From Corallococcus praedator (GTDB taxonomy: Bacteria > Myxococcota > Myxococcia > Myxococcales > Myxococcaceae): a DNA stretch of 33,605 nt. The notes below the pieces were generated by a model, which was not told where the DNA came from, did not search any database, and saw only the letters and a program-made list of their open reading frames with translations. The stretch lies in assembly GCF_003612125.1 (NCBI RefSeq), contig NZ_RAWI01000056.1, forward strand, positions 1 to 33,605. Reading direction: 5' to 3'. A program made the position numbers and the translations under genes. Position 1 is the first letter of the stretch. Every line of letters starts with the position of its first letter. This document shows, one piece after another, positions 9,299 to 24,648 of this stretch.

Positions 9299-9375
9299 CG
9301 GCTCGATGAGAACAGACGAATGTACGAATCGAGGCCCGCGGGTACATCTTCCTCGCCACGAAGGAGAGGGACCCC

Positions 9376-11007
9376 ATGAAGGCATCAGACCTGTTCGTCA
9401 AAGCGCTCGAAGCGGAGGGCGTGCGCTGCGTCTACGGACTTCCCGGCGAGGAGAACCTGGATCTGCTCGAGTCCATGCGCGCCGCCGGCATGCGCCTCGT
9501 CGTCACGCGCCACGAGCAGGCCGCCGGCTTCATGGCCGCCACGCAGGGCCGGCTCACCGGGCGCGCGGGCGTGTGTCTGGCCACGCTGGGGCCGGGGGCC
9601 ACCAACCTGGTCACCGCCGCCGCGTACGCCCAACTGGGCGCCATGCCCATGGTGATGCTCACCGGCCAGAAGCCCATCAAGGCCAGCAAGCAGGGCCACT
9701 TCCAGATCGTCGACGTCGTCGGGATGATGCGGCCCCTCACCAAGTCCACCCGCACGCTCGTCTCCGCGGAGCACGTCCCCTCGGCGGTCCGCGAGGCCTT
9801 CCGCCGGGCGGAGGAGGAGCGCCCCGGCGCCACCCATCTGGAGCTGCCCGAGGACGTGGCGCGCGAGTCCACCGACGCCGTGCCCCTGTCGCCCGGTGTC
9901 CTGCGCAGGCCCGTGGCCGACGAGGCGTCCATCGCCCAGGCCGTGGAGACCCTCGCGTCGGCCCGCCGCCCGCTCTTGATGATTGGCGCGGGGGCCAACC
10001 GCAAGCTCACCTCGGAGATGCTCCGCGCCTTCGTGGACCGCGTGGGATTGCCCTTCTTCAGCACGCAGATGGGCAAGGGCGTCGTGGATGAGGCGCACCC
10101 GCTGTGGATGGGCACCGCGGCGCTGTCCGACGGCGACTTCGTCCACCGCGCCATCGAGTCCTCGGACTGCATCCTCAACGTGGGCCACGACGTCATCGAG
10201 AAGCCCCCCTTCGTCATGCGCGACGGCCGCCGCACGGTGATCCACCTGGACTTCTCCTCCGCGGAGGTCGACCCCGTGTACTTCCCGCAGGTGCAGGTGA
10301 CGGGAGACCTGGCCAATGCCGTCTGGCGCATCGCGGAGGGCGTGGGCACGCGCTCGCACTGGGACTTCACGCCCTTCGAGCGGGCACGCGCGGGGCTCGA
10401 CGCGCAGTTCGTGAGCGGCGCCGCCGACGACCGTTTTCCCATCTACCCCGCGCGGCTCGTCGCGGAGGTGCGGCGCGCCATGCCGGAGGACGGCGTCGTG
10501 TGCCTGGACAACGGCATGTACAAGCTCTGGTTCGCCCGCTACTACCGCTGCCGCCGGCCCAACACGCTGCTGCTCGACAACGCGCTCGCGACGATGGGCG
10601 CGGGCCTGCCGTCCGCCATCGCCGCGAAGCTCGTCCACCCCAAGCGCAAGGTGGTGGCCGTCTGTGGTGACGGCGGCTTCATGATGAACTCGCAGGAGCT
10701 GGAGACGGCGGTGCGCTTGAAGCTGGACCTGACGGTGGTCGTGGTGCGCGACGACGGCTACGGGATGATCCGTTGGAAGCAGGGGGAGATGGGCCTGCCG
10801 GACTTCGGGATGACGCTGGGCAACCCGGACTTCGTCCGCTACGCGGAGGCATACGGCGCGCGCGGACACCGCCCGTCGAGCGCCACCGAGTTCGGCGCCA
10901 CGCTCGCGCGCTGCCTGGAGTCGGGCGGCGTGCACGTCATCGACCTGCCCATCGACTACCCGGACACCGCGCGGGCGCTGGGTGCCGGCGCGCTGGTGGA
11001 GGCGTGA
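9376..11007 (+). CDS. Acetolactate synthase large subunit-like TPP enzyme
   Basis: A 543-aa thiamine-diphosphate-dependent enzyme of the acetolactate synthase/pyruvate oxidase family, which decarboxylates a 2-oxo acid and transfers or oxidises the resulting carbanion. The N-terminal pyrimidine-binding domain carries the activating glutamate E47 (VTRHEQAAGF). The central domain spans about 190-320. The C-terminal PP-binding domain has the GDG motif at 431-433 and RDDGYGMIRWKQ (458-469), where D replaces the usual N of the metal site, as in catabolic acetolactate synthase-like members. AAGGAG lies about 10 nt before the start. No small regulatory subunit is nearby, which argues against a biosynthetic IlvB role. 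It is followed after 3 nt by an aldehyde dehydrogenase; together they look like a catabolic 2-oxo acid/aldehyde pair under the divergent LysR. Confidence 0.88.
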   Translation: MKASDLFVKALEAEGVRCVYGLPGEENLDLLESMRAAGMRLVVTRHEQAAGFMAATQGRLTGRAGVCLATLGPGATNLVTAAAYAQLGAMPMVMLTGQKPIKASKQGHFQIVDVVGMMRPLTKSTRTLVSAEHVPSAVREAFRRAEEERPGATHLELPEDVARESTDAVPLSPGVLRRPVADEASIAQAVETLASARRPLLMIGAGANRKLTSEMLRAFVDRVGLPFFSTQMGKGVVDEAHPLWMGTAALSDGDFVHRAIESSDCILNVGHDVIEKPPFVMRDGRRTVIHLDFSSAEVDPVYFPQVQVTGDLANAVWRIAEGVGTRSHWDFTPFERARAGLDAQFVSGAADDRFPIYPARLVAEVRRAMPEDGVVCLDNGMYKLWFARYYRCRRPNTLLLDNALATMGAGLPSAIAAKLVHPKRKVVAVCGDGGFMMNSQELETAVRLKLDLTVVVVRDDGYGMIRWKQGEMGLPDFGMTLGNPDFVRYAEAYGARGHRPSSATEFGATLARCLESGGVHVIDLPIDYPDTARALGAGALVEA

Positions 11008-11010
11008 GCC

Positions 11011-12403
11011 ATGGGAACGAAAGAGAACGAGGAGAACACCATGCTGGCTGAGCGCTACCCGTACTACCTGGCCAACCGACCGCGACAGCCCAACGCGGCG
11101 CTGGCCGTCACCGACAAATACTCGGGGGACATCGTCACGCACGTGGCCGTCGCCGACGCGGCCGCGGTGGAGGAGGCCATCGCCGCCGCGGTGCGCGCGA
11201 CAGGGCCGATGCGCAAGCTGCCGCCCTACGCCCGGCAGGAGGTGCTGGAGCACTGCGTGCGCCGCTTCCAGGAGCGGGCCGGGGAGCTCGCGCTCGCCCT
11301 GTGCATCGAGGCGGGCAAGCCGCTGCGCGACGCGCGGGCGGAGGTCACCCGCCTCATCGAGACCTTCAAGGCGGCGGCGGAGGAGGCCGTGCGCGGCGGG
11401 GGCGAGGTCCTCAACCTGGAGGTGTCGCGGCGCACGGAGGGCTACCGGGGCTTCACCCAGCGCGTGCCCGTGGGGCCGTGCTCCTTCATCACGCCGTTCA
11501 ACTTCCCGTTCAACCTGGTGGCGCACAAGGTGGCCCCCGCCATCGCCGCGGGCTGCCCCTTCGTCCTCAAGCCGTCGGACCGCACGCCGGTGAGCGCGCT
11601 GCTCATGGCGGAGGTGCTCGCGGAGACGGACCTGCCCGAGGGCGCCTTCTCCGTGCTCCCCACGCGCCTGGAGGACGTGGGCCCGTTCATCGAGGACGAC
11701 CGGTTGAAGCTCCTGTCGTTCACCGGCTCGGAGAAGGTGGGGTGGGACCTGAAGGCGCGCGCTGGCCGCAAGAAGGTGGTGCTGGAGCTGGGCGGCAACG
11801 CGGCCTGCGTGGTGGACGCGGATCAGGCCGGGCGCCTGGACTTCGTCGCGGACCGCATCGCCCAGGGCGCCTTCTTCCAGGCGGGGCAGAGCTGCATCTC
11901 GGTGCAGCGCGTGTTCGCGCACGCGTCGCTGTACGAAGCCCTGCGGGAGCGGCTCGTCGCGCGGGCCCGGGCCCTGCGTCCGGGCAACCCCCGGGACGAG
12001 TCCACCACGCTGGGGCCCCTGATTGACGAGCCCGCGGCGCGGCGCGCTGCTCGAGGCCACGGTGCTGGAGGGCGTCCTCGAGGACGCGCCGCTGTGCGCG
12101 GAGGAGGCCTTCGGGCCCGTCGTGCTGCTCCAACCGTTCCAGGACTTCGACGAGGCCCTGCGCCAGGTGAATGCCGGACGCTATGGCCTGCAAGCAGGCC
12201 TCTTCACGCAGGACGTGTCGCGGGCGATGCGGGCCTGGGACGAGCTGGAGGTGGGCGGCGTCGTCGTCGGTGACGTGCCGAGCTTCCGCGTGGACACCAT
12301 GCCCTACGGCGGGGTGAAGGGCTCCGGGCTGGGGCGCGAAGGCGTGAAGTACGCCATGGAGGACATGACGGAAGTGCGGCTGCTCGTGCTCCGTCAGGGT
12401 TGA
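11011..12403 (+). pseudogene. Aldehyde dehydrogenase, broken by internal deletion/frameshift
   Basis: An NAD(P)+-dependent aldehyde dehydrogenase. The first part (about 345 residues from 11011; a second start with GAGGAG is at 11041) has N164 (FNFPFN), K187 (KPSD), E259 (LELGG) and nucleophile C295 (GQSC). It runs up to GPLIDEPAARR near 12045 and then leaves frame. The C-terminal part (GALLEATVLEG, EEAFGPVV, YGGVKGSGLGREG) continues in the +1 frame from about 12041 to 12403. Comparison with the family shows that the roughly 20 residues normally between the LIDE segment and the GxLLEPTVL segment are also missing. The lesion is therefore a non-triplet deletion of about 60 nt, not a single-base slip. 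GGCGC repeats flank the junction. It is either a recent pseudogene or an assembly error. Confidence 0.85.
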
Positions 12404-12530
12404 ACTGTCACACGGGGGCGGGAACGGGCCCCTGCCTTCGGCCGGAAGTTGAATATCCCGCCGACCGTCACGTAGATGGGGCCGTGCGGCGCCAGGCCCG
12501 GCCCGCCTCTTACGTTTGGGGACTCAACGA

Positions 12531-12908
12531 ATGAACAGGAAGCTCGGCACGGCAGTGTTCATGATGATGGCGTGCACCTTCGGCCCGATGACGGCCGCCG
12601 CGGAGGAGGACGATGAGTCGGCGAGCGAGGCCACCATCGATGTCACCGGCACCGGCGAGACGTCCACCCACGAGTGCAAGCCGGACAGCACGGTGGAGAT
12701 CACCGGCGCGTCCAACAACGTCACGCTGACCGGCGAGTGCAAGAGCGTCACCGTGAACGGCTCCAGCAACGTCGTGAAGGTGGAGGCCACCCGCGTCATC
12801 GACGTGACGGGGGCGTCCAACACCGTCACCTGGAAGCGCGGTCACGGCAAGTCGAAGCCGAAGGTCAGCCGCACCGGCATGGGCAACAAGATCACCCAGG
12901 AGAAGTAA
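12531..12908 (+). CDS. Exported DUF3060-like repeat protein
   Basis: A 125-aa small secreted protein. It has a signal peptide (MNRKLGTAVFMMMACTFGPM, cleavage likely after TAAA at about 24), an acidic stretch (EEDDESASE), and then two to three short beta repeats with the motif ITGASNNVTLTGECKSVTVNG (two lines 57-77 and 89-101, core G-[AS]-S-N-x-V). This pattern matches DUF3060 proteins, which form small right-handed beta structures. A pair of cysteines (C49, C70) may form a disulfide. A basic tail ends the protein. The start is the first codon that gives a proper signal peptide. Function unknown. Confidence 0.75.
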   Translation: MNRKLGTAVFMMMACTFGPMTAAAEEDDESASEATIDVTGTGETSTHECKPDSTVEITGASNNVTLTGECKSVTVNGSSNVVKVEATRVIDVTGASNTVTWKRGHGKSKPKVSRTGMGNKITQEK

Positions 12909-12917
12909 TGCCCCGGG

Positions 12918-12948
12918 GCGACGCGTGACCCCGCCGGTCACGCGTCGC
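12918..12948. terminator. Perfect 13-bp bidirectional terminator
   Basis: GCGACGCGTGACC (12918-12930) pairs perfectly with 12936-12948 across a CCGCC loop. It lies between the convergent DUF3060-like gene (stop 12908) and a LysR gene, and includes the stop codon of the latter (12938-12940). Confidence 0.75.
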
Positions 12949-13858
12949 GCCAGAGGTCCTTCGTCACCTGCACCACGCGGTCGCGGATGAAGCGGATGGC
13001 CTCGTCGTCCTCGACCGCGCCCCGCCAGAGCAGCTCCAGCGGCGTCCCCTGCAGCGCGAGCGGCACCGCCGTCGTCTGGAGGTGCGGGCGCAGCCGGAGG
13101 ATGTCGCGCGCGACCATGAGTGGCACGGTGGCGAGCAGCGCACTGCCATCCACCAGGGCGCCGATGCTCTGGAACGTCGGCACCGACACCCGGACACGGC
13201 GCTGGACGTCGAAGTGGTCCTCCACGACGCCGCGCAGGTCTCCGTTGTACGAGACGATGACGTGCTCGTGCTCCAGGTAGCGCTCCAAGGTGAGGCGCCT
13301 TCCGACGCGCGCATGGCGCGGGTCATACAGGCACACGAAGCCCCCGTTGAAGAGCTCCAGGCGCTGGGTGCCGGCCGGAAGCTCATCCGCCACCGTCACC
13401 GCGAGGTCCACCGTCGAGCGGGTCAGGGCCTCCACGACGGTGCGGAACTGGACCGGCAGCACCACCAGCGTCATGCGCGGCGCTTCCCGGGCAAGGATTT
13501 GGAGGAGGGGAGGGAGCAGCCAGGCCTCGGTCACGTCCGACAGGCCAAGGCGCACCGTCCGCTCGCTCGTCATCGGGTCGAAGGACACCGGTGACAGCGT
13601 GGCCTCCACGAGCGCCCCCAGGTGCGGCCGCGCTGAAGCCAGCAGGCGCTCGCCGCGCGTGGTCAGCACCAGCCCCCGCCCCGAGCGGACGAAGAGGGGC
13701 GCGCCCACCGCGGACGCGAACCGTCTCAGCGCCGCGCTCACCGCGGGCTGCGTGAGGTAGAGGCGCTCGGCCGCCGCCGTGACGCTGCCGGCCTCCGCCA
13801 CCACGATGAAGACGCGGAGCAGGTTGAGGTCCAGGTTCCTTCCATAGATGGCGTTCAT
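12938..13858 (-). CDS. LysR-family regulator (NodD/PcpR-like subgroup)
   Basis: A 306-aa LysR-type regulator. The start MNAIYGRNLDLNLLRVFIVV and the recognition region LTQPAVSAALRRF (about 35-47) place it in the LNLL-type subgroup that includes NodD/SyrM/LeuO-like proteins. The effector domain fills about 95-300. It is divergent from an aldo/keto reductase, with only 75 nt between the two starts, so it probably regulates that gene. The intergenic space includes a small GGAT-AC-ATCC dyad (13865-13874). The ligand is unknown. Confidence 0.9.
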   Translation of the reverse strand: MNAIYGRNLDLNLLRVFIVVAEAGSVTAAAERLYLTQPAVSAALRRFASAVGAPLFVRSGRGLVLTTRGERLLASARPHLGALVEATLSPVSFDPMTSERTVRLGLSDVTEAWLLPPLLQILAREAPRMTLVVLPVQFRTVVEALTRSTVDLAVTVADELPAGTQRLELFNGGFVCLYDPRHARVGRRLTLERYLEHEHVIVSYNGDLRGVVEDHFDVQRRVRVSVPTFQSIGALVDGSALLATVPLMVARDILRLRPHLQTTAVPLALQGTPLELLWRGAVEDDEAIRFIRDRVVQVTKDLWRDA

Positions 13859-13933
13859 GATTGGGATACATCCTATTCAATGGATTTCAGCGTGGCGAAT
13901 GATGAATCTCTGCTCACACGGAAGGGGCGACAC

Positions 13934-14935
13934 ATGGCCACGCAAGAGACGAAGCAGGCGCAGCGCACGGTGAAGCTGGGGGCCACGGGGCCGGACGTAT
14001 TCCCGCTCGGGCTGGGGTGCATGGGCATGTCGGGCATGTACGGCGTGACGGATGACGCGGAGAGCATCCGGACCGTCCAGACCGCCATCGACCGGGGTGT
14101 CACGCTCATCGACACCGGGGACTTCTACGGGATGGGCCACAACGAGCTGCTGGTGGGGCGCGCCATCGCGGGCCGGCGGGAGCGGGTGCAGCTGTCGGTG
14201 AAGTTCGGGGCGCTGCGCGGGCCGGATGGAAGCTGGATGGGCATGGACATGCGTCCCGCCGCGGTGAAGACCTTCGCGGCCTACAGCCTGAAGCGGCTGG
14301 GGGTGGACGTCATCGACATCTACCGCCCCGCGCGGTTGGATCCCGCGGTCCCCATCGAGGACACCATCGGTGCCATCGCGGACCTCGTGAAGGCCGGCTA
14401 CGTGCGCCACATCGGGCTGTCAGAGATGGGGGCGGAGACGATCCGCCGCGCGCACCGCGTGCACCCCATCGTCGACCTGCAGATTGAATACTCGGTGGCG
14501 AGCCGTGGCCCCGAGGCGGACATCTTCCCCGTGCTCGCGGAGCTGGGCATCAGCGCGACGCTCTACGGTGTCTTTTCCCGGGGGCTGCTGACGGGGAGCA
14601 AGCCGAAGGGGCAGGGGGACTACCGCGCGTACCTGCCGCGCTTCGCGGGCGACAACGGCGAGAAGAACCAGGACAGCGTGGCCGCCTTCCAGCGCTTCGC
14701 CCAGGAGCGCCGGATGACGCCGGGTCAGCTCGCGATCGCCTGGGTGATGGCGCGCCAGCCGGCCTTCGTTCCCGTGGTGGGCGTGAAGACGCAGGCACAG
14801 CTGGACGACGCGCTGGGCGCCCTCACCCGGCCGCTGTCGAAGGAGGACGCGGCGGCGCTGGAGTCGCTGGTGACGATTGCCGGCGACCGCTACCCGGCGG
14901 AGCAGATGCACCACCTGGACAGCGAGCGCCGGTAG
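13934..14935 (+). CDS. Aldo/keto reductase-fold protein lacking the catalytic histidine
   Basis: A 333-aa (beta/alpha)8 aldo/keto reductase-like protein. D60 and Y65 (DTGDFY) and K90 (LSVKFG) of the catalytic tetrad are present. The position of the histidine in the RVDP/RLDP segment is alanine (A133 in IYRPARLDP); the other reductase in this window has QHRVDP. I recall this YRPARLDP form as a recognisable subgroup, so it is probably not a random mutation, but the chemistry may differ. The start at 13934 has GAAGGGG 6 nt upstream; an earlier in-frame ATG at 13880 would overlap the shared promoter with the divergent LysR gene. Cytoplasmic. Substrate unknown. Confidence 0.87.
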   Translation: MATQETKQAQRTVKLGATGPDVFPLGLGCMGMSGMYGVTDDAESIRTVQTAIDRGVTLIDTGDFYGMGHNELLVGRAIAGRRERVQLSVKFGALRGPDGSWMGMDMRPAAVKTFAAYSLKRLGVDVIDIYRPARLDPAVPIEDTIGAIADLVKAGYVRHIGLSEMGAETIRRAHRVHPIVDLQIEYSVASRGPEADIFPVLAELGISATLYGVFSRGLLTGSKPKGQGDYRAYLPRFAGDNGEKNQDSVAAFQRFAQERRMTPGQLAIAWVMARQPAFVPVVGVKTQAQLDDALGALTRPLSKEDAAALESLVTIAGDRYPAEQMHHLDSERR

Positions 14936-14959
14936 CCGCGCCGGGGCCTGCCCGCGGGG

Positions 14960-15361
14960 TCAGTACACCCAGACGCTCTTCGGCTGGAAGGGCAGGGTGC
15001 TCTGTCCCGAGTGCGGATCAACGGGGTGCGGACCGCCGACACAGTCCTCGTTGAGGAACAGCGACGCGTAGTAGTTCCCCGTGTTGATGGCCGAGTACGC
15101 GCGGTCCTCCCAGCCGTGCTCCGGCAGGTTCACGCACACCCCCACGCCGGGCGTGATGGAACGGACGTTCCAGACCGCACCCGTGTAGTCCACGCCGTCG
15201 AACAGGCAGAGCACGCCCGAGAAGGGACAGGGTGAGTCGTCCTGGGCCACCGCGCTTCCCGGGGTCAGCAGCGACGCGACCGCCAGGGCTCCGGTCGCCA
15301 CGAGGATGCGCCACCGGGGCGCGTGGCGATGCATGGAAAGACGCTTGAACCAGTTCACCAT
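14960..15361 (-). CDS. Secreted I36/crystallin-like protein
   Basis: A 133-aa exported protein. A long basic N-region (to R18) and hydrophobic core lead to a probable signal peptidase site after GSAVA (about 39). The mature part has one beta/gamma-crystallin-like unit, with LCLFDGVDYTGAVWNV and YSAINTGNYYASLFLNEDC, and four cysteines (C45, C52, C76, C107). This fits peptidase inhibitor family I36 (streptomyces metalloprotease inhibitor-like) proteins common in actinobacteria and myxobacteria. Whether this one inhibits a protease is not shown. The start is fixed by a very strong AAGGAGGAT sequence just before the ATG. That Shine-Dalgarno is complementary to an upstream leader segment (see 15362-15411). 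Confidence 0.78.
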   Translation of the reverse strand: MVNWFKRLSMHRHAPRWRILVATGALAVASLLTPGSAVAQDDSPCPFSGVLCLFDGVDYTGAVWNVRSITPGVGVCVNLPEHGWEDRAYSAINTGNYYASLFLNEDCVGGPHPVDPHSGQSTLPFQPKSVWVY

Positions 15362-15411
15362 GGATCCTCCTTTGCCCTTCAAGGGCAGGTCCTTTGTGAG
15401 CCAAGGAGGAT
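15362..15411 (-). promoter_or_regulatory. Leader RNA able to sequester the I36-gene Shine-Dalgarno
   Basis: In the minus-strand mRNA leader, ATCCTCCTT (15411-15403) is perfectly complementary over 9 nt to AAGGAGGAT (15372-15364), the Shine-Dalgarno, which ends 2 nt before the ATG. Between them is a second perfect hairpin, TGCCCTT-G-AAGGGCA (15387-15373), stacked directly on the SD arm. The geometry is that of a translational switch such as an RNA thermometer or protein/ligand-controlled leader. The trigger is unknown. Confidence 0.55.
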
Positions 15412-15435
15412 AGTCAGTCTTGCTGGAAATGCAGG

Positions 15436-15458
15436 ACTTTCGCTGCTGCGGTGAAAGT
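15436..15458 (-). terminator. Stem-loop downstream of the AAA+ operon
   Basis: ACTTTC (15436-15441) pairs with GAAAGT (15453-15458), extended by one C-G pair and one G-U pair. It lies about 80 nt after the stop of the last AAA+ gene and upstream of the I36 gene on the same strand. It is a modest terminator candidate. The 175 nt between these genes otherwise hold only the I36 leader. Confidence 0.3.
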
Positions 15459-15536
15459 GTGGTGATTGGGCAATGAGAGACGCCCTCGACCCTCCGCGTC
15501 TGTCTTCCATTGAGCATGCATGACGCAGCGCAATCG

Positions 15537-17846
15537 CTACGGGCCGAGCTCCACCGTTCCTTCCGTCCCCACCCGCAGCACCACCTGGGCGGGTGGGGCG
15601 CTTGCGTGTCCGGCGAGCCACTGGGCCAGCCGGGTGACGACGTGCTGCTCCACCGCGCGCTTCAGGGGTCGGGCGCCGTAGCGCGCATCGAAGCCGGTGC
15701 GCGCCAGGTACTCCACCACGTCCTCGCCGAAGGACACCTTCACACCCCGACGGGTGAGCCCCTCGCGCGCCAGGGCCGCCTCCAGTGTGCGCCGCGCCAG
15801 GGCCCGGATGACGTCCGGCGTGAGGGGCCGGTAGGGCACCACCTGATCCAGCCGATTCAGCAGTTCGGGTCGGAAGAAGGCGGTGGCTGCGCCCAGGTAG
15901 TGCTGCTCCAGGTCGCGCACGCTGCCCCCGCCGAAGCCCAGCGAGCGCCCCGCGCTGTCCGCGCCCAGGTTGCTGGTGAGCAGCACCACCGTGTTGCGGA
16001 AGCTGACGGTGCGGCCGGTGCCGTCCGTGAGGCGTCCCTCGCCCAATACCTGGAGGAGCAGGTCATGGACGCCCGCGTCCGCCTTCTCCACTTCGTCCAG
16101 CAGCACCACGCCGAAGGGCTGCTCACGCACGCGGCGCGCAAGGCCGCCCTGCTGGCCGCCCACCTCGCCCACCAGTCGCGCGGCGCTGCCGGGCGCCGCG
16201 TACTCCGCCATGTCGAAGCGGGCCAGCCGGGACGTGTCGCCGAAGAGGTACTCCGCCAGCGCCAGCGCGGACTCCGTCTTGCCCACGCCGGTGGGGCCCA
16301 GCAGCAGGAAGGCGCCCAGCGGGCGGGACGGGTCCGCCAGCCCCGTCTTCAGCGTGACGATGAGGTTGCGCAGCAGCAGCGTGGCCTCGTCCTGGCCGAC
16401 GATGCGCTCGCGGAAGCGCCGCAGCAGGGCCTCCGGATCCAATCGCACGGACGTGTCCACCAGCTCGCGCGGGTAGCCGGTGCGCGTGCAGAAGGCCTGC
16501 GTCACCCCGGCCGCGTCCACTTCTCCGGTGGAGGAGGGCTGGGTGCTGGCCGAGCGCAAGAGGGCCACCGCACCCCCGGGAGGCGGGCCGTCTCCGAAGC
16601 GCTCCGTCAATTCGGCGGCGCGCTCCAGCGCGTCCTGCGTGAAGCGCACCTTGCGCGCGCGGGCCACCCGCTGCGAGGCCTGCTGGAGCGCGGAGCGCGC
16701 GGCCACGGCGGCCAGGGGCGCCACCGAGAGCTGCCGCAGCGCCTGCAGGAAGGCCCCGTGCGTCCGCTCCGCGCGGGCCACGTCCTCCGGGGTGGCCTCC
16801 AGCACCAGCGCCACCTCTCCGCCCTCCAGGGCCGGTAGCAGGTGACGCGCCACGTCCAGCCCCGTGTCGCCGCCGCCCAGCGAGAGCAGCTCCGACAGGC
16901 TGTCCAGGTGCAGCACCGCGCGGCGCACGCGCAGCGCCTCCACCATGTGCTGTACGCGCTCCTGCCACTGCCCCAGGTAGCGCATGCCGGCCATGATGCG
17001 GCCGCCCGACGTGCTGTAGACCTCCAGGCCGCGCAGGGGATGGCCCACGGCGGCGACTTCCGCGCGCTGCACCAGTTCGTGCACGAGCGCTGTCTTGCCC
17101 ACCGACGCCGGGCCCACCAGCAGCACGCTGGCGCGGCTGCTCGCGGTGACGGCCTCGGCGAGCCGGGCTACCTCCGCGTCGCGCTCCCACGCTCGCTCCA
17201 GCAGTCCGGCGCGCGCCTCTTCGTTGAGGCAGCGGCTGGCCTCCGCGAGCCCGGGAGGCGGCGGCAGGCGCTTCGGCTGCTTCGAGGTCCCCTCGTCGGC
17301 GCGGGCCTTCGGCGTCTGCTTCCCGCGCGAGGGCACGGACAGCGTCTCCACCGACTCCTCGCCCAGGTACGCCAGCCCGTGCAGCCGCTCCAGCGGCGCG
17401 AGGTACAGCTCGTGGCGGACCAGCTCCTCCACGTAGGACTCCAGGTCCGCCGCGTCGTGCAGCATGCCCTCCACGCCCACGCGCGGCACCCACACCCGCA
17501 GCGGCCCCTTCGCCTTCGCCTTCGCCGTGTCGCCCTTGCGCGCGGTGCGAGACGCGCCGCGCCCGCCGTGGGTCACCACCGTGAGGCGCAGCGGTACGGG
17601 CAACAGCCGCCCGTGCTGCATGGCGCGCACGGTGAAAGCCATGCGGCGCTGGCGCAGATCCTCCCAGTGCGTCACGTCGTCCCACAGCTCGCCGCGGTGC
17701 AGGAGGCGGCCCACCACCTCCGCCAGGTCCAGCCGCGCGGTGCTCAGGTCGGCGGCGAACGACGCCAGGTGCGGGTGCGTCAGCACGTGGGCCGCCACGC
17801 CCAGTCCCGGGTAGCGGCGCACGAAGAGATGAAAGTTCTTGTCCAT
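15537..17846 (-). CDS. Clp/HSP100-like double AAA+ ATPase, third of tandem array (769 aa)
   Basis: A two-ring AAA+ protein. Residues 1-170 are a non-Clp N domain shared with the two upstream paralogues, then a Lys/Pro linker. D1: Walker A GPASVGKT (245-252), pore-loop-like AGMRYLGQW (Y290), Walker B-like VLHLDSL (D315, S316, so no catalytic Glu). D2: Walker A GPTGVGKT (517-524), Walker B VVLLDE (580-585), sensor 1 N626, Arg finger R659 in FFRPELLNRLD, sensor 2 GARPLKR (724-730), then the Clp D2-small domain. The D2 GYVG pore segment is replaced by a shorter LVGEVGGQQGGL (558-569). A ClpP-loop-like tripeptide LGF occurs at 636-638. It lacks the long C-terminal extensions of its paralogues. Its Shine-Dalgarno AAGGAGGG lies inside the end of the preceding gene, 3 nt away, indicating translational coupling. 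Likely an ATP-driven remodelling factor; the substrate is unknown. Confidence 0.85.
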   Translation of the reverse strand: MDKNFHLFVRRYPGLGVAAHVLTHPHLASFAADLSTARLDLAEVVGRLLHRGELWDDVTHWEDLRQRRMAFTVRAMQHGRLLPVPLRLTVVTHGGRGASRTARKGDTAKAKAKGPLRVWVPRVGVEGMLHDAADLESYVEELVRHELYLAPLERLHGLAYLGEESVETLSVPSRGKQTPKARADEGTSKQPKRLPPPPGLAEASRCLNEEARAGLLERAWERDAEVARLAEAVTASSRASVLLVGPASVGKTALVHELVQRAEVAAVGHPLRGLEVYSTSGGRIMAGMRYLGQWQERVQHMVEALRVRRAVLHLDSLSELLSLGGGDTGLDVARHLLPALEGGEVALVLEATPEDVARAERTHGAFLQALRQLSVAPLAAVAARSALQQASQRVARARKVRFTQDALERAAELTERFGDGPPPGGAVALLRSASTQPSSTGEVDAAGVTQAFCTRTGYPRELVDTSVRLDPEALLRRFRERIVGQDEATLLLRNLIVTLKTGLADPSRPLGAFLLLGPTGVGKTESALALAEYLFGDTSRLARFDMAEYAAPGSAARLVGEVGGQQGGLARRVREQPFGVVLLDEVEKADAGVHDLLLQVLGEGRLTDGTGRTVSFRNTVVLLTSNLGADSAGRSLGFGGGSVRDLEQHYLGAATAFFRPELLNRLDQVVPYRPLTPDVIRALARRTLEAALAREGLTRRGVKVSFGEDVVEYLARTGFDARYGARPLKRAVEQHVVTRLAQWLAGHASAPPAQVVLRVGTEGTVELGP

Positions 17847-17849
17847 GGC

Positions 17850-20800
17850 TCAGCCCTCCTTCCGGGTCGCGCGCCGCAGCACGCCCCCGGCCCAGGCGAG
17901 CGCCTCCGACGGCGTGCGCCGGCTCGCCAGGTGTAGAAGCCCGCTCTCGCTTCCCTCCACCACCACGCGGCCCGGGCGCTGCTCCCGTGCCGTCCCCGCG
18001 CGCCGCGCCTCGCGTTCCGCCGCGCGCACCGCATCCCGCGCGGCCACCGCTCCGGACACGTCGTCCATCAGGCCCGCGCCGCCGTCCATCAGCTCCACGC
18101 GCACGGGCGCAGGGCGCACCAGGTCGCCGCGCAGAGTCTCCACCAGTGCGTATCCCTCCAGCGGCGCCAGCACCTCCGCGAGGCCGAAGGCGGTGAGGCT
18201 CACGGCGATGCGCCGCACCCGCACCCCCACCGGACGCTGCGAGCCGGGAGGCGCCCAGGCGATGCGGCCCTCCGGCTCCACGCGCTCCTCGTGCACCGCC
18301 GCGCGCCCCAGGGCCTGCGGCAGCGCGCGCGCCACCGCCTCCAACGCGGACACGGGTGCATCGCCCAGTCCTTCGATGAGCACTGTCCGCACGTCCGGCC
18401 CGCGCTCGCGGCAGGCGAGCTGATGCGCAAGCCAGTCCACCTCGTCCCGCAGGTTCACCACCCGGGGGCGGCAGCGACGCAGCCGCTCCTCGCGGGACAC
18501 CGGCAGGGGAACGGAGGCATAGGTCGGACGGGCCCGGAGGCCGCCGCGACCGGGGTTGCGGCGCCAGTCGTACGCGCGCTCGACCTCCTTGGGCACCGCC
18601 TCCTCTGTCTCCACGAAGTCGCGCTCCGCCAGATCGGTCTCCCGGATGTCCACCGCCTCCACACGGAGGCGCTCCAGCCGCTCCAGCAGCTCCAACGCTT
18701 CCGCGTTCGCCGCCGGGGCGCGAGGTCGTGCCGCCTCCCCGGCGGAGAGCGCATCCAGCCGCGACGCCGTCTCCTCCAGCACGCGCGACACATCCGCCAG
18801 CGTCCAGACCGCCGGGTCCGGCTCCGGCGCCCAGGCCGACTCGCGCGTCATCAGCTCCACGGACAGACCCATGTCGTCGCCCCGGGGGAACAGCTCCACC
18901 CGGGCGAGGTCCTCGGCGCCTCGGCGCACCAGGTGGTGGGCCAGGGGCACCGTGAGGCGCCGCTCCAGCGCGCGCTTGAGGGGACGCGCGCCGTAGCGCG
19001 GGTCATAGGCCTGCTCCACGAGCAGATCCAACAGCGCGGGCTCCACCTCCACCAGCACGTTGCCGCGGCGGATGCCCCGGCGCGACAGCAGCGACTCCAG
19101 CGCGTGCTCCACCACCACGCGCAGCGCCGTGGGCGTCAGCGGGCGGAAGGGCACCACCCGGTCCAACCGGTTGAAGAACTCCGGGCGGAAGAAGGCGCGC
19201 ACGGAGGACAGGTAGTGCGCCTCCGCGCTGTCGGCCGTGCGATGGAAGCCGGTGCGCGCCGCGGCCTCGCGCACGCCCAGGTTGGACGTCAGCACCACCA
19301 CCGCCTGTCGCGCGTCCACCGTGCGGCCGGCACCATCCGTCAGCCGCCCCTCGCCGAGGAACTGGAGCAGGGCATCGAAGACGCGCGGGTGCGCCTTCTC
19401 CACCTCGTCGAAGAGCACCACGCAGAAGGGCTGGGTGCGCAGCGCGGTGGTCAACTCACCGTCCGGCGCGCCCGGCATGCCGAGCAGCCGGGTGATGCTG
19501 GACGCGGACACGAACTCCGACATGTCGAAGCGCACGAGCCGCCCCTCGCCACCGAAGAGGGTGCGCGCCAGGGCCTTGGCCGTCTCCGTCTTGCCCACGC
19601 CGGTGGGGCCCACGAAGAGGTACGTGGCCAGCGGCTTGTCCGGCGGCTGCAACGAGCGTTGCAGCGTGAGGATGGCATCCACCACCGCGGACACCGCCTC
19701 CGGCTGGCCCGCCACCTGCGCGGCCAGCTCACGCTCCAGCGCGTCGCGCGTCTTCGGCGGCGCGCTGCCCAGCACGAAGTCCGGCAGGCCCGTCTGCTCG
19801 CGCATGGCGGAGGTGACGTCCTCCTGGGTGAAGCGGCGCACGCCGTTCTCCTGCGTGCCGGGCCGCGACACCACCCGGCGCAGCAGCCGGACGGCCTTGC
19901 CCGGAAAGGCTTCGTGCGCGACGAAGCGCTGCTGCAGATCCAACAGCGTCTCCAACGCCAGCGGGGACAGCCGCACCGCGCCCGCGTGGCTCGCGGCCTC
20001 CAGCTCGCGCAGCGTGCCCAGGAGCGCGGGCAGCGTGGCGCGCGCGTCCAGCGCCGGCACGTGCACCACGCGGAAGAGCGAGGCGAAGGTGGGGGCCTCC
20101 TCACGCACGCGCTCGAAGCGCTCCGGCGTGGACTCGGCCAGCACCGTCAGCTCACCGCGCGCCAGGTGGGGCTCCAGGAACTGCGCCACGTTGGTGCGCT
20201 CGCTGTGGGTGCGCCCCGCGTAGACGAGCGAGGCCAGGTCGTCCACGTAGAGCAGGTCGCCCACCTCCACCAGCTCCTGCACCACGCCGCGCGCGCGGGC
20301 CTCCCACTGGCCCACGTACATCATGCCCGCGATGAACTGGTTGCCGTCCACGCGCCACACGTCGCGCCGGGTGCCCGCGGCGTCCTGCCGCGCGGTGAGG
20401 CGGCTGACGGCCTCGTGCACCAGCGCCGTCTTGCCGGAGCCGGACGGGCCCACGAGGATCACCGCGGCGCCCTCGCGGCCTTCCAGCGCGTCCACCACCT
20501 CGCGCACCAGGGCCTCGCGGCCGAAGCAGTGCTCCAGGGCTCCGTCCCGCGCGCCATGGCTCAGGTTGCGGGCCACCGCGCGCAGCTCCACGAGCGACAG
20601 GCGGCGGCGGTTGCGGCGCGCTTCGCGCTGCTCGGGCGTCTCCGGGGTCGGCTCCTTCTTCTTCTCGGCGGTGGCCTTGCGGCGGCGCGCCGCAGTGGGG
20701 GGCTTGGGCGGAGTCCTCGGGAGGACGGTGGGCGCGTACGCGTCCACCTCCAACAGCTCCAGGCGCTCGTGTCCGGTGGACCAGGCCTCGTCCAGGTTCT

Positions 20801-21234: not shown

Positions 21235-24200
21235 TCAGTCCTCCTTCCGCGCGCCGAAGACGCGCCACTGCAACCACGCTTCCAGCAGGGCTTCCATGTC
21301 CAGCCCCGCCGACCCGTAGCGCTGCTTCGCGCCGGTGCGCAGGTCTTCCAATGAGCCTCCCCCCAGGTCGCTGGAGGAGGGACGCAGCCGGCGCACCTCC
21401 TCCTTCGTCAGCGACTTCTCCAGGTCCTCCAGCGCCGGCAGTGCGTGCAGGGCCAGGGGCTGCGGCTCGAAGCGCACGCGCACCAGCGCGGCCTGGCTGC
21501 CCTCGACGAAGCGGTGCACGCCCTGCTCACCCGCGAGCAGCAGCGGCAGCGTGTCGCTGGTGAGCTGCAGCGCATACGCGGCGGGAGTGCGCTTCAACGT
21601 GGCCAGCTCCGCCTTCTGCTCCCAGCTCCACTTGTGCCGGAGGTCCTTGTCCTTGCGCGAGGGCTTCGGCTTCTCTCCGTCCTTGGGCTCCTCGGGCAGC
21701 AGCAGGGCCCGCTGGAAGGCGATGGACTGCGCCTGGGCCCAGGCCTCGTAGGCCTTCGCCAGCGTGCACAGGTGCGGCCACGCGCCGCGTCCGGGAACGA
21801 GCAGGAGGGTGACGCCGCGTGAGGGCGGAAAGAGGCTGGCGTGGATGCGCTGGCGCAGGGGCTGGAAGGCCCGCCGCAGTCCGGCCACGTCGCGGGCCAG
21901 GGACTCCGCCTGTCCCACGGCGCGCGTGAGGTGCGCCTCGAAGAGGAGGTCCTCCACGGCCTCGGCCTGCTGCGCGCAGTCTCGGAAGGCCTTGTCCAAC
22001 TCGCGCGCCTCGGACGACTTGCGCGAGGACGCCTCGGCCAGGGCCCGCTCCTCCCAGTACGCCGGCTGGCGGGACGCCTTGTCGAAGACGGCCAGCTCGC
22101 GGCGCAGGGCCAGCATGGGTTCGCAGCGGCTCCAGCGCTGCACCTCCGCGCGCAGGCTGGCCGCGTCCTCCAGCACCTGCTCGATGGCCTGCCGTCCCAC
22201 GCCCTCCGCGTCCCCGCCCACCGCCTCCGCGCGCAGCGCGAGCCCCGTGTCGCCGGCCTCCACGGACAGCTTCACCGCGCCGCCCCGGGGATGCGCGGCG
22301 AGCCATGCCGCCACCGGCACGACCAGCTCCCGCTCCAGCGCGCGCTTGAGGGGACGGGCGCCATAGCGCGGGTCGAAGCCGCGCGCGGCCAGCCAGTCCA
22401 GCGCGGAAGGGGCGACCTCCAGCGCCGCGTCGTGGAGGGACAGGCCCGGGCGGCGGCACACGGCCTCCACCTCGCGCACCACCAGCCGGCGCAGCAGGTC
22501 CTGGGAGAGGGGAGAGAAGACGACCACGTCATCGAGCCGGTTGAACAGCTCCGGGCGGAAGAAGCGCTGCACCTCCGCGAGGTAGTGCGCGCGCAGGGCG
22601 GCGGTGTCGGGCGCGCCGCCGGAGGAGTCGAAGCCCACGCGGGCGCGCCAGGTGTCCGCGCCCAGGTTGCTGGTGAGCACGAGCACCGCGTTGCGGAAGT
22701 CGGTGAAGCGGCCGGACGCGTCGGTGAGGCGGCCCTCGCCCAGCACGCCCAGCAGCGCGTCGTGCACGGCGGGGTGGGCCTTCTCCACCTCGTCCAGCAA
22801 CACCACGCAGAAGGGCTGGCGGCGCACCGCGGAAGACAGGTGTCCGGGCGTCTCGCCGTCACCCAGCAGGCGCAGCAGCGCATCCGGGCCGGCGTACTCG
22901 CCCATGTCCAGACGGACCATGCGCTCCTTCGCGCCGAAGAGCAGCTCCGCCAGGGCCTTGGACAGCTCCGTCTTGCCCACGCCGGTGGGGCCCACGAAGA
23001 GCAGCACGCCCAGGGGACGGCGGGTGTCGGCGAGGCCCGCCTTGAGCACGGACACCACCGCCGCCGCGCGCTCCACCGCCGTCTCCTGCCCCAGCACCCG
23101 CGTGGAGAGGAAGGCGCGCACCCCGGCCGGCTCCAGCGGGACGTCGTCGCGCAGGAGCGACTCGGGGATGCCGGACTCGGAGGCGAACTGGCGGACGGCG
23201 TCCAGGCGGGTGACGCGCGGCTGGGCCGCGTGCGCGCACGTGGCCAGCAGGCGGCGGAGGAAGGCCACCGCGTTGCCCACCTGCGCGCCGTAGGGCAGGA
23301 AGCGGCGGCAGAGGAAGCGCGCCTCGTCGAGCGCCTCGGGCAGCACCTCCAGCGGCTTGGGTCCCGCGTCGTCCTCCGCCACGCGCGCGAGGATTCGGGC
23401 CAGCGCGTCCGCTGACGGCTCCTCCACGCGCACCACGGAGAAGAGGCGGGCGAAGCTGGCGTTGCGGCGCTCCACCTGGGCCCACGTCTCCGGCGTGGCC
23501 TCCGCCACCACGGACACCTCGCGGGTGGCGAGCAGCGGCAGGAGGAGCTGGGCCACGTTCTGATCGCTGTGCGCGCTCTTGCCCGCGTCCAGCAGGTCCA
23601 CCGCGTGGCCCAGGCTGAGGATCGCGTGCGACTCGGCGGCTTCACGCAGGCAGCGGATCACCTGCTGCTGCCAGTCGCCCATCATGCCCTCGCCCGCGAT
23701 GAGGCGGCTGCCATCCAGGAAGAAGAAGGGACGGGCGCGCTCGGATGCGGTGCCTGCGGGCGCGCGCAGCTCCTGGGCGAGCGCGTGGAGCACCGCCGTC
23801 TTTCCCACGCCGGAGGGACCCACCAGCACCACGGACTCCGCGTCCTTCGCCGCGAGGCGCGCGCGGAGCAGCGTCACCAGGGCGTCCTGCTCGTACGCGG
23901 GGTCGAGCTGACCGTCCTGGGCGAGCGCATGCCAGGGCACGGCGATGCGGTCCAGCGTGGGAGTGGGGGGCGGCTTCTGGGGCCGTGCGCCCGCGTCGCG
24001 GCGGCGGGAGCGGCGGCGCGGCTCCCACGAGTCCGGGTCCAGCGCGTCCTCGTCCTCGTCGTCCAGGCCGGCGGCGTCCGACTTCTCCGCTGGAGCATCC
24101 GGAGGACGCGGCGGCGGGCGGATGTCCAGGCGAAGCTGGCGCGGGGTGAGGGTGGCGAGCGGGGTGGGCGTGGCCTGCACCTCCAACTCCACCAGCGACT

Positions 24201-24648
24201 CCTGGCCCTCCGGGCGCAGCGCGAGCCGACGCGCGTCGGAGAGGCCCTCCAGTTGTTCGCTCAAGCGCTCCGTCGCGTCCGGGGGGAGCGCCTTGCCCTG
24301 GAACCACAGGTGCGTTCCGAGCCTCGGGGTGTGAAGTCCGGTGAAGGACTGGTGCGCGGGGGCGACGACGGCGGAGAAGTGCAGCGGTGAGACGGTGTTC
24401 TCCTCCGCGCCCCAGACGGGGATGCCCGGCACCTCCAGCGTGTGCAGGACGCCGTCGGGCGCGGCGATGAACTCCGGCACCCGGCGGGGGTGTACGCGGG
24501 TGAGCTGATCATCCAGCGCCAGCGTCAGCTCCTCGGTGGCCTTCTCCAGCGAGTCCGCGTGCACGGCGAGGTGGGGAAGGGCCAGCGGCGTGAGCGTGAC
24601 CCGGCGACTGGCGTGCCGCTGCACCCAGCATTGAAAACGGAAGTTCAT
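21235..24648 (-). CDS. Clp/HSP100-like double AAA+ ATPase fused to an RF2-like domain, first of array (1137 aa)
   Basis: Residues 1-175 form the shared N domain, 176-235 an acidic then Arg/Pro-rich linker. D1 has Walker A GPSGVGKT (277-284) but its Walker B region reads AILSLGHAVDLL (no D or E), and the pore motif is GMMGDW without tyrosine. D2 is complete: GPTGVGKT (553-560), VVLLDE (615-620), N661, R698 in FFRPELFNRLD, GARPLKR (763-769). The GYVG pore segment is lost (LLGDGETPGHL) and VGF is present at 671-673. Residues about 845-1137 read as a degenerate peptide chain release factor 2: a coiled coil beginning RQPAYWEER, a central GRGAWPHL...YEAWAQAQSIAF segment, EQGVHRFV (1041-1048) and a terminal DLRTG (1102-1106) followed by a leucine-rich helix. 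SPF and GGQ motifs are absent. No Shine-Dalgarno is visible before the ATG, unlike the two downstream genes. The start is supported by alignment with both paralogues. Confidence 0.83.
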   Translation of the reverse strand: MNFRFQCWVQRHASRRVTLTPLALPHLAVHADSLEKATEELTLALDDQLTRVHPRRVPEFIAAPDGVLHTLEVPGIPVWGAEENTVSPLHFSAVVAPAHQSFTGLHTPRLGTHLWFQGKALPPDATERLSEQLEGLSDARRLALRPEGQESLVELEVQATPTPLATLTPRQLRLDIRPPPRPPDAPAEKSDAAGLDDEDEDALDPDSWEPRRRSRRRDAGARPQKPPPTPTLDRIAVPWHALAQDGQLDPAYEQDALVTLLRARLAAKDAESVVLVGPSGVGKTAVLHALAQELRAPAGTASERARPFFFLDGSRLIAGEGMMGDWQQQVIRCLREAAESHAILSLGHAVDLLDAGKSAHSDQNVAQLLLPLLATREVSVVAEATPETWAQVERRNASFARLFSVVRVEEPSADALARILARVAEDDAGPKPLEVLPEALDEARFLCRRFLPYGAQVGNAVAFLRRLLATCAHAAQPRVTRLDAVRQFASESGIPESLLRDDVPLEPAGVRAFLSTRVLGQETAVERAAAVVSVLKAGLADTRRPLGVLLFVGPTGVGKTELSKALAELLFGAKERMVRLDMGEYAGPDALLRLLGDGETPGHLSSAVRRQPFCVVLLDEVEKAHPAVHDALLGVLGEGRLTDASGRFTDFRNAVLVLTSNLGADTWRARVGFDSSGGAPDTAALRAHYLAEVQRFFRPELFNRLDDVVVFSPLSQDLLRRLVVREVEAVCRRPGLSLHDAALEVAPSALDWLAARGFDPRYGARPLKRALERELVVPVAAWLAAHPRGGAVKLSVEAGDTGLALRAEAVGGDAEGVGRQAIEQVLEDAASLRAEVQRWSRCEPMLALRRELAVFDKASRQPAYWEERALAEASSRKSSEARELDKAFRDCAQQAEAVEDLLFEAHLTRAVGQAESLARDVAGLRRAFQPLRQRIHASLFPPSRGVTLLLVPGRGAWPHLCTLAKAYEAWAQAQSIAFQRALLLPEEPKDGEKPKPSRKDKDLRHKWSWEQKAELATLKRTPAAYALQLTSDTLPLLLAGEQGVHRFVEGSQAALVRVRFEPQPLALHALPALEDLEKSLTKEEVRRLRPSSSDLGGGSLEDLRTGAKQRYGSAGLDMEALLEAWLQWRVFGARKED

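Follow-up and report, generated by a model that had tools for sequence, protein, structure and literature searches.

What is the body of a release factor doing behind a Clp-type motor? The question is raised by an operon of Corallococcus praedator, one of the myxobacteria, which are predatory soil bacteria. The operon lies in a window of 33,605 nucleotides (contig NZ_RAWI01000056.1 of assembly GCF_003612125.1), the whole stretch of DNA that was analyzed, and encodes three ATPases in the order P0001, P0002, and P0003 (Table 1). P0001 is a divergent member of the Clp/Hsp100 AAA+ ATPases whose tail derives from release factor 2 (RF2), and P0003 reaches its C terminus soon after the D2-small domain. 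A small, probably secreted protein is encoded directly 3' of the operon (positions 14963 to 15517, minus strand); by eye we take it to have a beta/gamma-crystallin-type likeness.

Table 1. Features of the operon, in positions of the window
Feature	Position	Strand	Basis
P0001, 1137-aa Clp/Hsp100-like double AAA+ ATPase with RF2-derived tail	21235..24648	-	1137-codon ORF
P0001 D1 AAA module (residues 253-377): Walker A present, Walker B Glu gone	23518..23892	-	
P0001 D2 AAA_2 module (residues 544-707): Walker A/B and sensors intact; no GYVG pore-loop motif; VGF at ClpP-loop position	22528..23019	-	
P0001 ClpB_D2-small domain (residues 714-782)	22303..22509	-	
P0001 degenerate RF2 body (~residues 822-1131), GGQ domain deleted	21256..22185	-	profiles and predicted structure
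P0001 RQPAYWEER, counterpart of RF2 QP..W segment, domain 1	22045..22071	-	
P0001 EQGVHR, counterpart of RF2 ETGVHR	21511..21528	-	
P0001 DLRTG, counterpart of RF2 C-terminal DLRTG	21331..21345	-	
P0002, 1126-aa Clp-like ATPase, 4 bp downstream of P0001	17850..21230	-	
P0002 release-factor-like tail (~residues 811-1121)	17868..18800	-	predicted structure only
P0003, 769-aa Clp-like ATPase without RF-like tail, 3 bp downstream of P0002	15537..17846	-	

A degenerate RF2 body at the C terminus of P0001

A preliminary description, made from the letters of the sequence, had proposed that the end of P0001 follows the order of RF2 and quoted the strings RQPAYWEER, GRGAWPHL...YEAWAQAQSIAF, EQGVHRFV, and SLEDLRTG, all of which are present in the minus-strand open reading frame. 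The 298-aa tail alone matched a single Pfam family up to an E value of 1, PCRF (PF03462), with E 0.0096 and 16.2 bits, which is under the curated cutoff of 24 bits. The better of its two NCBIfam matches was prfB (TIGR00020; E 0.03). A phmmer search of the PDB with the same single tail returned no RF2, its one match being Snu13 (E 1.1).

The alignment A1 contains 22 P0001-type tails, that of the window and those of 21 of the 24 loci at which P0001 relatives were found in a collection of 84,980 species; L015, which lacks the N terminus, L026, which is distant, and L027, a fragment, were left out. PCRF was matched in 16 of the 22 members (best E 1.4e-6), at least two of which, L020 (28.7 bits) and L022 (24.6 bits), pass the cutoff, and prfB was matched in 21 (best E 1.8e-8). 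When the A1 profile was searched against 177,635 PDB sequences, all 21 matches up to E = 10 were RF2 (best E 2.5e-8). These matches were collinear with RF2 through the N-terminal coiled coil, the central domain, ExGxHR, and then, weakly, DLRTG.

An AlphaFold2 model of the tail built with A1 (pLDDT 86.2, pTM 0.80) has long predicted helices. Class-I release factors (RF2, RF1, mtRF1, and PrfH) occupied ranks 1 to 47 of a Foldseek search of the PDB with this model (best E 1.1e-10), and VIA-align placed model residues 19 to 326 on residues 5 to 366 of the RF2 chain 6szs (Z 15.6, 260 residues, 6.4 A). The first VIA-align row from another kind of protein, sperm flagella doublets, had a Z of 10.4 and covered only model residues 3 to 138. 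Global TM-scores were modest (0.22 to 0.45) and the Foldseek rmsd was large, as expected if the domains sit at different angles. All three parts of the class-I release factor fold (the domain 1 coiled coil, domain 2, and the C-terminal segment) were found, in RF2 order.

These results confirm that the last ~315 residues of P0001 are a degenerate RF2 body, a distant homologue of RF2 and no copy of it. The proposed RF2 order is thus borne out by the profiles, the AlphaFold model, and Foldseek. The top match to RF2/PCRF across the coiled coil as well as the central domain, which the preliminary description had offered as the deciding observation, was obtained with profiles, Foldseek, and VIA-align, and the opposite outcome that it had named, matches to generic coiled coils only, did not occur. 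Its placement of the body at the C terminus stands, but the body starts ~23 residues earlier than it had indicated.

In three loci from Archangium-like and related MAGs (L020:12410-13558, L022:11283-12431, and L023:5458-6606) the RF2-like tail carries an insert. The insert resembles the C-terminal domain of ribosomal L7/L12 (PF00542) in L022 (E 1.4e-5, 25.8 bits against a cutoff of 25.9) and weakly in L020 (E 0.033), a hint that may be another pointer to translation.

There is also more to be found than the preliminary description had proposed, for the host genome contains a further fusion of this type. A PCRF search of that genome returned RF1, RF2, and P0013 (E 2.3e-14), a 966-aa Clp-like ATPase with an RF2 tail (G000:C919; L028:2106-5003, minus strand), referred to here as the core fusion. 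A3, a profile of 11 core-fusion tail sequences, matched almost the whole of Escherichia coli RF2 (48-344 on 29-360, E 4.4e-22); the match spans the diverged GGQ domain, and the GGQ loop is missing. Release factors made up 40 of the 45 PDB matches of A3 up to E = 10, the other five beginning at E 0.47. All 11 members matched prfB (best E 5e-27), and matches to the RF1 models were weaker (best 1.4e-12).

Comparison of A1 with A3 by hhalign gave a probability of 93.6 and an E value of 2.1e-7. In a tree of 8 of the 22 A1 tails, 11 core tails, and 28 release factors, core and operon tails group together (100/99), RF1 sequences form a second group (100/100), and the placement of RF2 between the two is unresolved; the tree has long branches, and its bootstrap had not converged. 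Six of the release factor rows had long open frames and were trimmed to the release factor part; L115 and L117, which have no GGQ frame, were excluded, and L104, with SPY rather than SPF, was assigned to RF2 by hand. The tree is consistent with one origin of the core and operon tails from RF2.

Could the resemblance to RF2 reflect chance or a generic coiled coil? The single-sequence signals were weak (E 0.0096 and 0.03), phmmer missed RF2, and 4 of the 22 A1 members touched the coiled-coil family Rootletin (best E 0.02). However, the profiles, the predicted structure, and the core paralogue agree on release factors, with no other match of comparable strength. This explanation was therefore rejected, and we give it almost no weight.

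Distribution of the fusions and the tail of P0002

The core fusion was found in 86 of the 96 genomes of the host family and, outside the family, in 1 of 99 genomes sampled from the phylum (E < 1e-40), with absences that are soft because a limited number of candidates was scored in the first look. A few of the counted matches lie on short or cut frames, and that of G034 contains an in-frame TAG (G034:C277:7037-7951). In 10 genomes, nine of the host family and one of another, the core fusion shares 60-95% identity with P0013 along nearly its full length. Each neighboring gene recurs in at most two of the other nine loci, and there was no translation-related conserved neighbor. The core fusion therefore works independently of any fixed operon.

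The operon is patchy. P0001 tails were found in 39 of the 96 family genomes (E < 1e-80, with weaker matches to the P0001 profile in two further genomes left uncounted) and P0002 tails in the same 39. Operon tails are present in all 27 genomes of genus g41 and in 7 of the 16 genomes of the host genus.

Beyond the phylum, P0001 was the query for the species collection and for plasmids. The 24 loci from the species collection bear the labels of myxobacteria (Corallococcus, Myxococcus, Pyxidicoccus, Archangium, and their kin), of deltaproteobacterial or Polyangia MAGs, and of one Comamonas; 14 of them have the P0001-P0002-P0003 order. Among the matches listed from 2273 plasmid records, only Clp-type AAA+ similarity was seen, and none covered 80% of the query. 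The label Comamonas sp. KCTC 72670 (L014, BNCN01000006.1) is probably wrong; there the operon lies in a Myxococcus-like neighborhood of a 603-kb contig.

Some loci depart from the usual arrangement. At L025:9929-13444 a P0001-like gene with an RF2-like tail stands alone, and neither P0002 nor P0003 follows it within 7 kb. P0002 is interrupted by an in-frame TAG and split into two frames in L011/G007 (L011:10790-14152; G007:C79:13175-14152). In the Polyangia MAG L026, two distant Clp-like ORFs (9341-12688 and 12208-16134) run on into long C-terminal extensions; a PCRF search of both extensions gave no match, and one of them contains a GEHGTH string like the ExGxHR segment.

The tail could also serve as a decoy or sensor in a conflict or stress system, in which the dead RF2 would bind factors or toxins aimed at RF2 or at the A site and then trigger the ATPase. 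The presence of the operon in 39 of 96 genomes is the patchy pattern that such a role would fit, and inactive copies of cellular enzymes have been described as effectors in multicellular bacteria (PMC7159879). However, the accessible text of that paper names no release factor, and the core fusion, near-universal in the family and with 60-95% identity across 10 genomes, is unlike fast-evolving conflict genes. We consider a decoy or sensor role improbable.

The MoxR-vWA ternary conflict systems, for which the same accessible text (PMC7159879) names neither PCRF nor any release factor, were rejected as an identity for the operon; bpMoxR (PF20030) scored 24.5, 19.8, and 14.3 bits against P0001, P0002, and P0003, below its cutoff of 27.

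The tail of P0002 was analyzed with A2, an alignment of 15 tails from which the two L026 ORFs, the interrupted L011 gene, and loci cut off inside the gene were omitted. No Pfam family was matched, hhalign against the P0001 tail gave a probability of 0.8, and the three matches of the tail profile in the PDB up to E = 10 included no release factor. The predicted structure (pLDDT 87.5, pTM 0.80) has an order of elements similar to that of the P0001 tail, and Foldseek ranks 1 to 47 were release factors (best E 7.6e-6). VIA-align matched it to RF2 (1gqe) with a Z of 11.2 over 255 residues at 6.2 A; the first 44 rows were release factors, and the next row had a Z of 6.5. To judge from the model, P0002 also appears to end in a release-factor-like fold, so that release factor bodies are apparently present in two of the three operon subunits.

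Retained and lost features of the tail and the motor

The host genome encodes separate, intact RF1 and RF2, both with GGQ. The GGQ and SPF motifs of an active class-I release factor were found in neither the operon tails nor the core tails. For P0001 the motif check agreed with the preliminary description, which had listed both motifs as missing and called the domain catalytically dead; their absence from all 22 operon tails and the deletion of the GGQ domain in P0001 support that label at the sequence level. The GGQ domain is deleted in the operon tails and degenerate in the core tails.

Motif counts for the core are from 40 rows (39 genomes, with G009 twice) out of 87 core matches. SPF is absent from all 62 tail rows (22 operon and 40 core) and GGQ from 61; the core row L075 has the string at another place, and at the GGQ position itself none of the 40 core rows has it. 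ExGxHR of domain 2 is conserved in 22/22 operon tails and 40/40 core rows. The alignment also shows conservation of the Trp of the RQPAYWEER segment in core and operon tails.

For a count of conserved columns, the core and operon tails were aligned with 14 RF2 and 12 RF1 sequences of the same phylum (L114 and L116, the same gene, were both dropped). Region borders were cut along the host's RF2, and a column was scored as kept when at least 80% of the tails retained it. The core retains 29 and the operon tails 16 of 127 RF2-conserved columns, mainly in domain 2 up to ExGxHR (12/34 in the core, 10/34 in the operon tails) and in the switch loop and C terminus (9/22 and 3/22). Retention was 6/20 and 3/20 in domain 1, 1/12 and 0/12 in the SPF loop, 0/6 in both for the strand and linker that follow this loop, and 1/33 and 0/33 in the GGQ domain. 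The C-terminal RF2 segment of the core is nearly invariant among the 11 sequences of A3. At the G.GG.E tip of RF2 the core has neither Gly and the operon tails have two. Net charges of the tails are close to neutral (+1, -3, -2).

The main rival to ribosome targeting is a non-ribosomal scaffold. The RF2 fold might have been exapted as a structural or regulatory arm that makes no contact with ribosomes, its coiled coil either holding the ring together or behaving like the middle domain of ClpB/ClpC and its head binding some other client. The loss of SPF, GGQ, and most RF2-conserved columns, the long predicted helices, the near-neutral charge, and a P0002 tail that has passed beyond sequence recognition with its fold retained all point in this direction. 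However, ExGxHR in 62/62 rows and a near-invariant C-terminal segment in the core are more than a bare scaffold seems to need, and induction of the operon by a ribosome inhibitor, discussed below, also speaks against it. We regard a scaffold as a serious possibility, although one with less than an even chance.

P0001 passes the Pfam cutoffs of AAA_2 (139.1 bits versus 27) and ClpB_D2-small (48 versus 21.9) and misses every NCBIfam equivalog cutoff that was compared: ClpB (322 of 1232 bits), ClpA (289 of 993), and TssH (274 of 885). P0001 does not qualify as a ClpA, ClpB, or TssH equivalog, nor is it an active release factor. TssH/ClpV of type VI secretion is an Hsp100 relative whose gene lies near the operon in Myxococcus xanthus; as an identity for P0001 it was rejected on its score against TIGR03345.

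With ClpA, ClpC, and ClpB, P0001-type proteins share the D1-D2-D2-small architecture and intact D2 catalytic motifs. Walker A, Walker B (DE), sensor 1, and sensor 2 of D2 were found in every row tested, and the arginine finger box pattern was found in 18/22 P0001, 15/15 P0002, 14/15 P0003, and 36/39 core rows. In D1, Walker A is kept and the Walker B Glu is replaced, in sequences such as LGHA, VDDLA, LDSLS, or IRDLP, in the 22 P0001, 15 P0002, 15 P0003, and 10 core rows printed. With this Glu replaced, D1 is predicted to bind and not to hydrolyze ATP. From these motifs D2 looks catalytically intact and D1 looks limited to ATP binding.

In ordinary Clp proteins the GYVG motif forms the D2 pore loop for threading, and an xGF loop docks ClpP, as in ClpA, ClpC, and ClpX. 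GYVG is missing from D2 in 22/22 P0001, 14/15 P0002, 15/15 P0003, and 39/39 core rows, and it is present in all four other Hsp100 proteins of the host. Some P0001 orthologues have PGYL or PGHL in its place, perhaps as a remnant. The missing loop makes classical D2 threading doubtful. At the place of the ClpP-docking loop, VGF was found in 21/22 P0001 rows, L/V/MGF in 15/15 P0003, and L/M/IGF in 39/40 core rows (one frame is cut); P0002 has TGF in 13/15. The hydrophobic-Gly-Phe at this position in P0001, P0003, and the core is a further likeness to ClpA, ClpC, and ClpB, and a link to ClpP is possible. Unlike those proteins, the P0001 type lacks the D1 Walker B Glu and D2 GYVG and has an added RF2 tail.

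A possible role at the ribosome

Gene order connects the operon with M. xanthus. M. xanthus AM003 (L016, contig G195:C144) has the three genes flanked by a T6SS block on one side and a ClpB/ClpC-like gene on the other. MXAN_4807, 4808, and 4813 of strain DK1622, as given in the accessible part of PMC4239648, match the AM003 series of TssB, TssC, four genes, and then TssH, and clpC is MXAN_4832 in the accessible part of PMC11423568. With rough gene calling, AM003 has 10 genes from TssH to P0001, compared with 9 free MXAN tags, and 5 from P0003 to the clpC-like gene, compared with 6. By gene order, therefore, the operon corresponds to MXAN_4823-4825 and P0001 to MXAN_4823 as its orthologue.

Induction of MXAN_4823-4825 by the ribosome inhibitor chloramphenicol has been reported. 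The response of M. xanthus to chloramphenicol, as far as the accessible account gives it, is broad, with changes in 1920 genes at 8 h and in 481 genes of adapted cells. The induction is thus only suggestive as a link to translation.

We propose, with a probability of about one half, that the tail steers the AAA+ ring to ribosomes or to RF2's partners; ribosome docking had also been put forward as plausible in the preliminary description. P0001, a divergent Clp/Hsp100-type ATPase, has an RF2-derived C terminus that can no longer read stop codons or hydrolyze peptidyl-tRNA, and P0001, P0002, and P0003 may form a mixed ring. The tail would act as a targeting arm that brings this ring to the ribosomal A-site region, when vacant, stalled, or drug blocked, or to an RF2 partner. 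ATP hydrolysis by D2 would then remodel the bound complex, and protein might be handed to ClpP. The single-gene core would be the housekeeping form and the operon the inducible form of a role in translation quality control. The fuller version of this proposal is more tentative: a myxobacterial AAA+ machine that docks on ribosomes via a disarmed RF2 and remodels stalled or drug-blocked complexes, with a housekeeping form and an inducible three-subunit ring in which two subunits bear release factor bodies.

Ribosome targeting is favored by the homology and fold of the P0001 tail, by the end-to-end match of the core to RF2, and by the presence of the core in 86 of 96 family genomes with 60-95% identity in 10 genomes. 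It is further favored by the second release factor fold, that of P0002, with both tails in the same 39 of 96 genomes; by ExGxHR in 62/62 rows and the RF2 columns retained in domain 2 and the C-terminal segment; and by the intact D2 motifs and the correspondence of the operon to chloramphenicol-induced MXAN_4823-4825. However, both codon-reading elements are altered, SPF being lost and the G.GG.E tip changed, few RF2-conserved columns survive, and the tails are nearly neutral. The missing D2 GYVG loop, the breadth of the chloramphenicol response, and the lack of a translation-related neighbor of the core gene also weaken the proposal.

Like RF2 (prfB, TIGR00020; PCRF, PF03462), the tails have domains 1 and 2 and the C-terminal segment, alike in fold and arrangement, together with ExGxHR and DxRT(G); they differ from RF2 in lacking SPF and GGQ and in being fused behind a double AAA+ motor. 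PrfH, among the structural matches of the P0001 tail, is a release factor paralogue for damaged or stalled ribosomes; it retains GGQ and lacks an AAA+ motor. Cdc48/p97, which acts in the ribosome quality control of eukaryotes, is an AAA+ ring recruited to stalled ribosomes by separate factors. If the proposed function is right, an AAA+ ring is brought to stalled ribosomes in both cases, but Cdc48/p97 has no fused release factor for recruitment, and the targeting part is unrelated.

In the open-access literature, no AAA+ or Clp ATPase with a release factor or PCRF domain was found, nor anything relevant on RF2 together with myxobacteria or a Clp ATPase. The findings suggest that the Clp-RF2 fusion is an undescribed machine tied to the ribosome. 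Should its tail still find the ribosome, the fusion would give bacteria, in a single polypeptide, an equivalent of the AAA+ step of ribosome quality control. This idea can be tested directly, since the core fusion is near-universal in a family that includes genetic models, and the operon may explain in part how M. xanthus responds to chloramphenicol. The fusion would represent a translation factor turned into a motor accessory even without ribosome contact.
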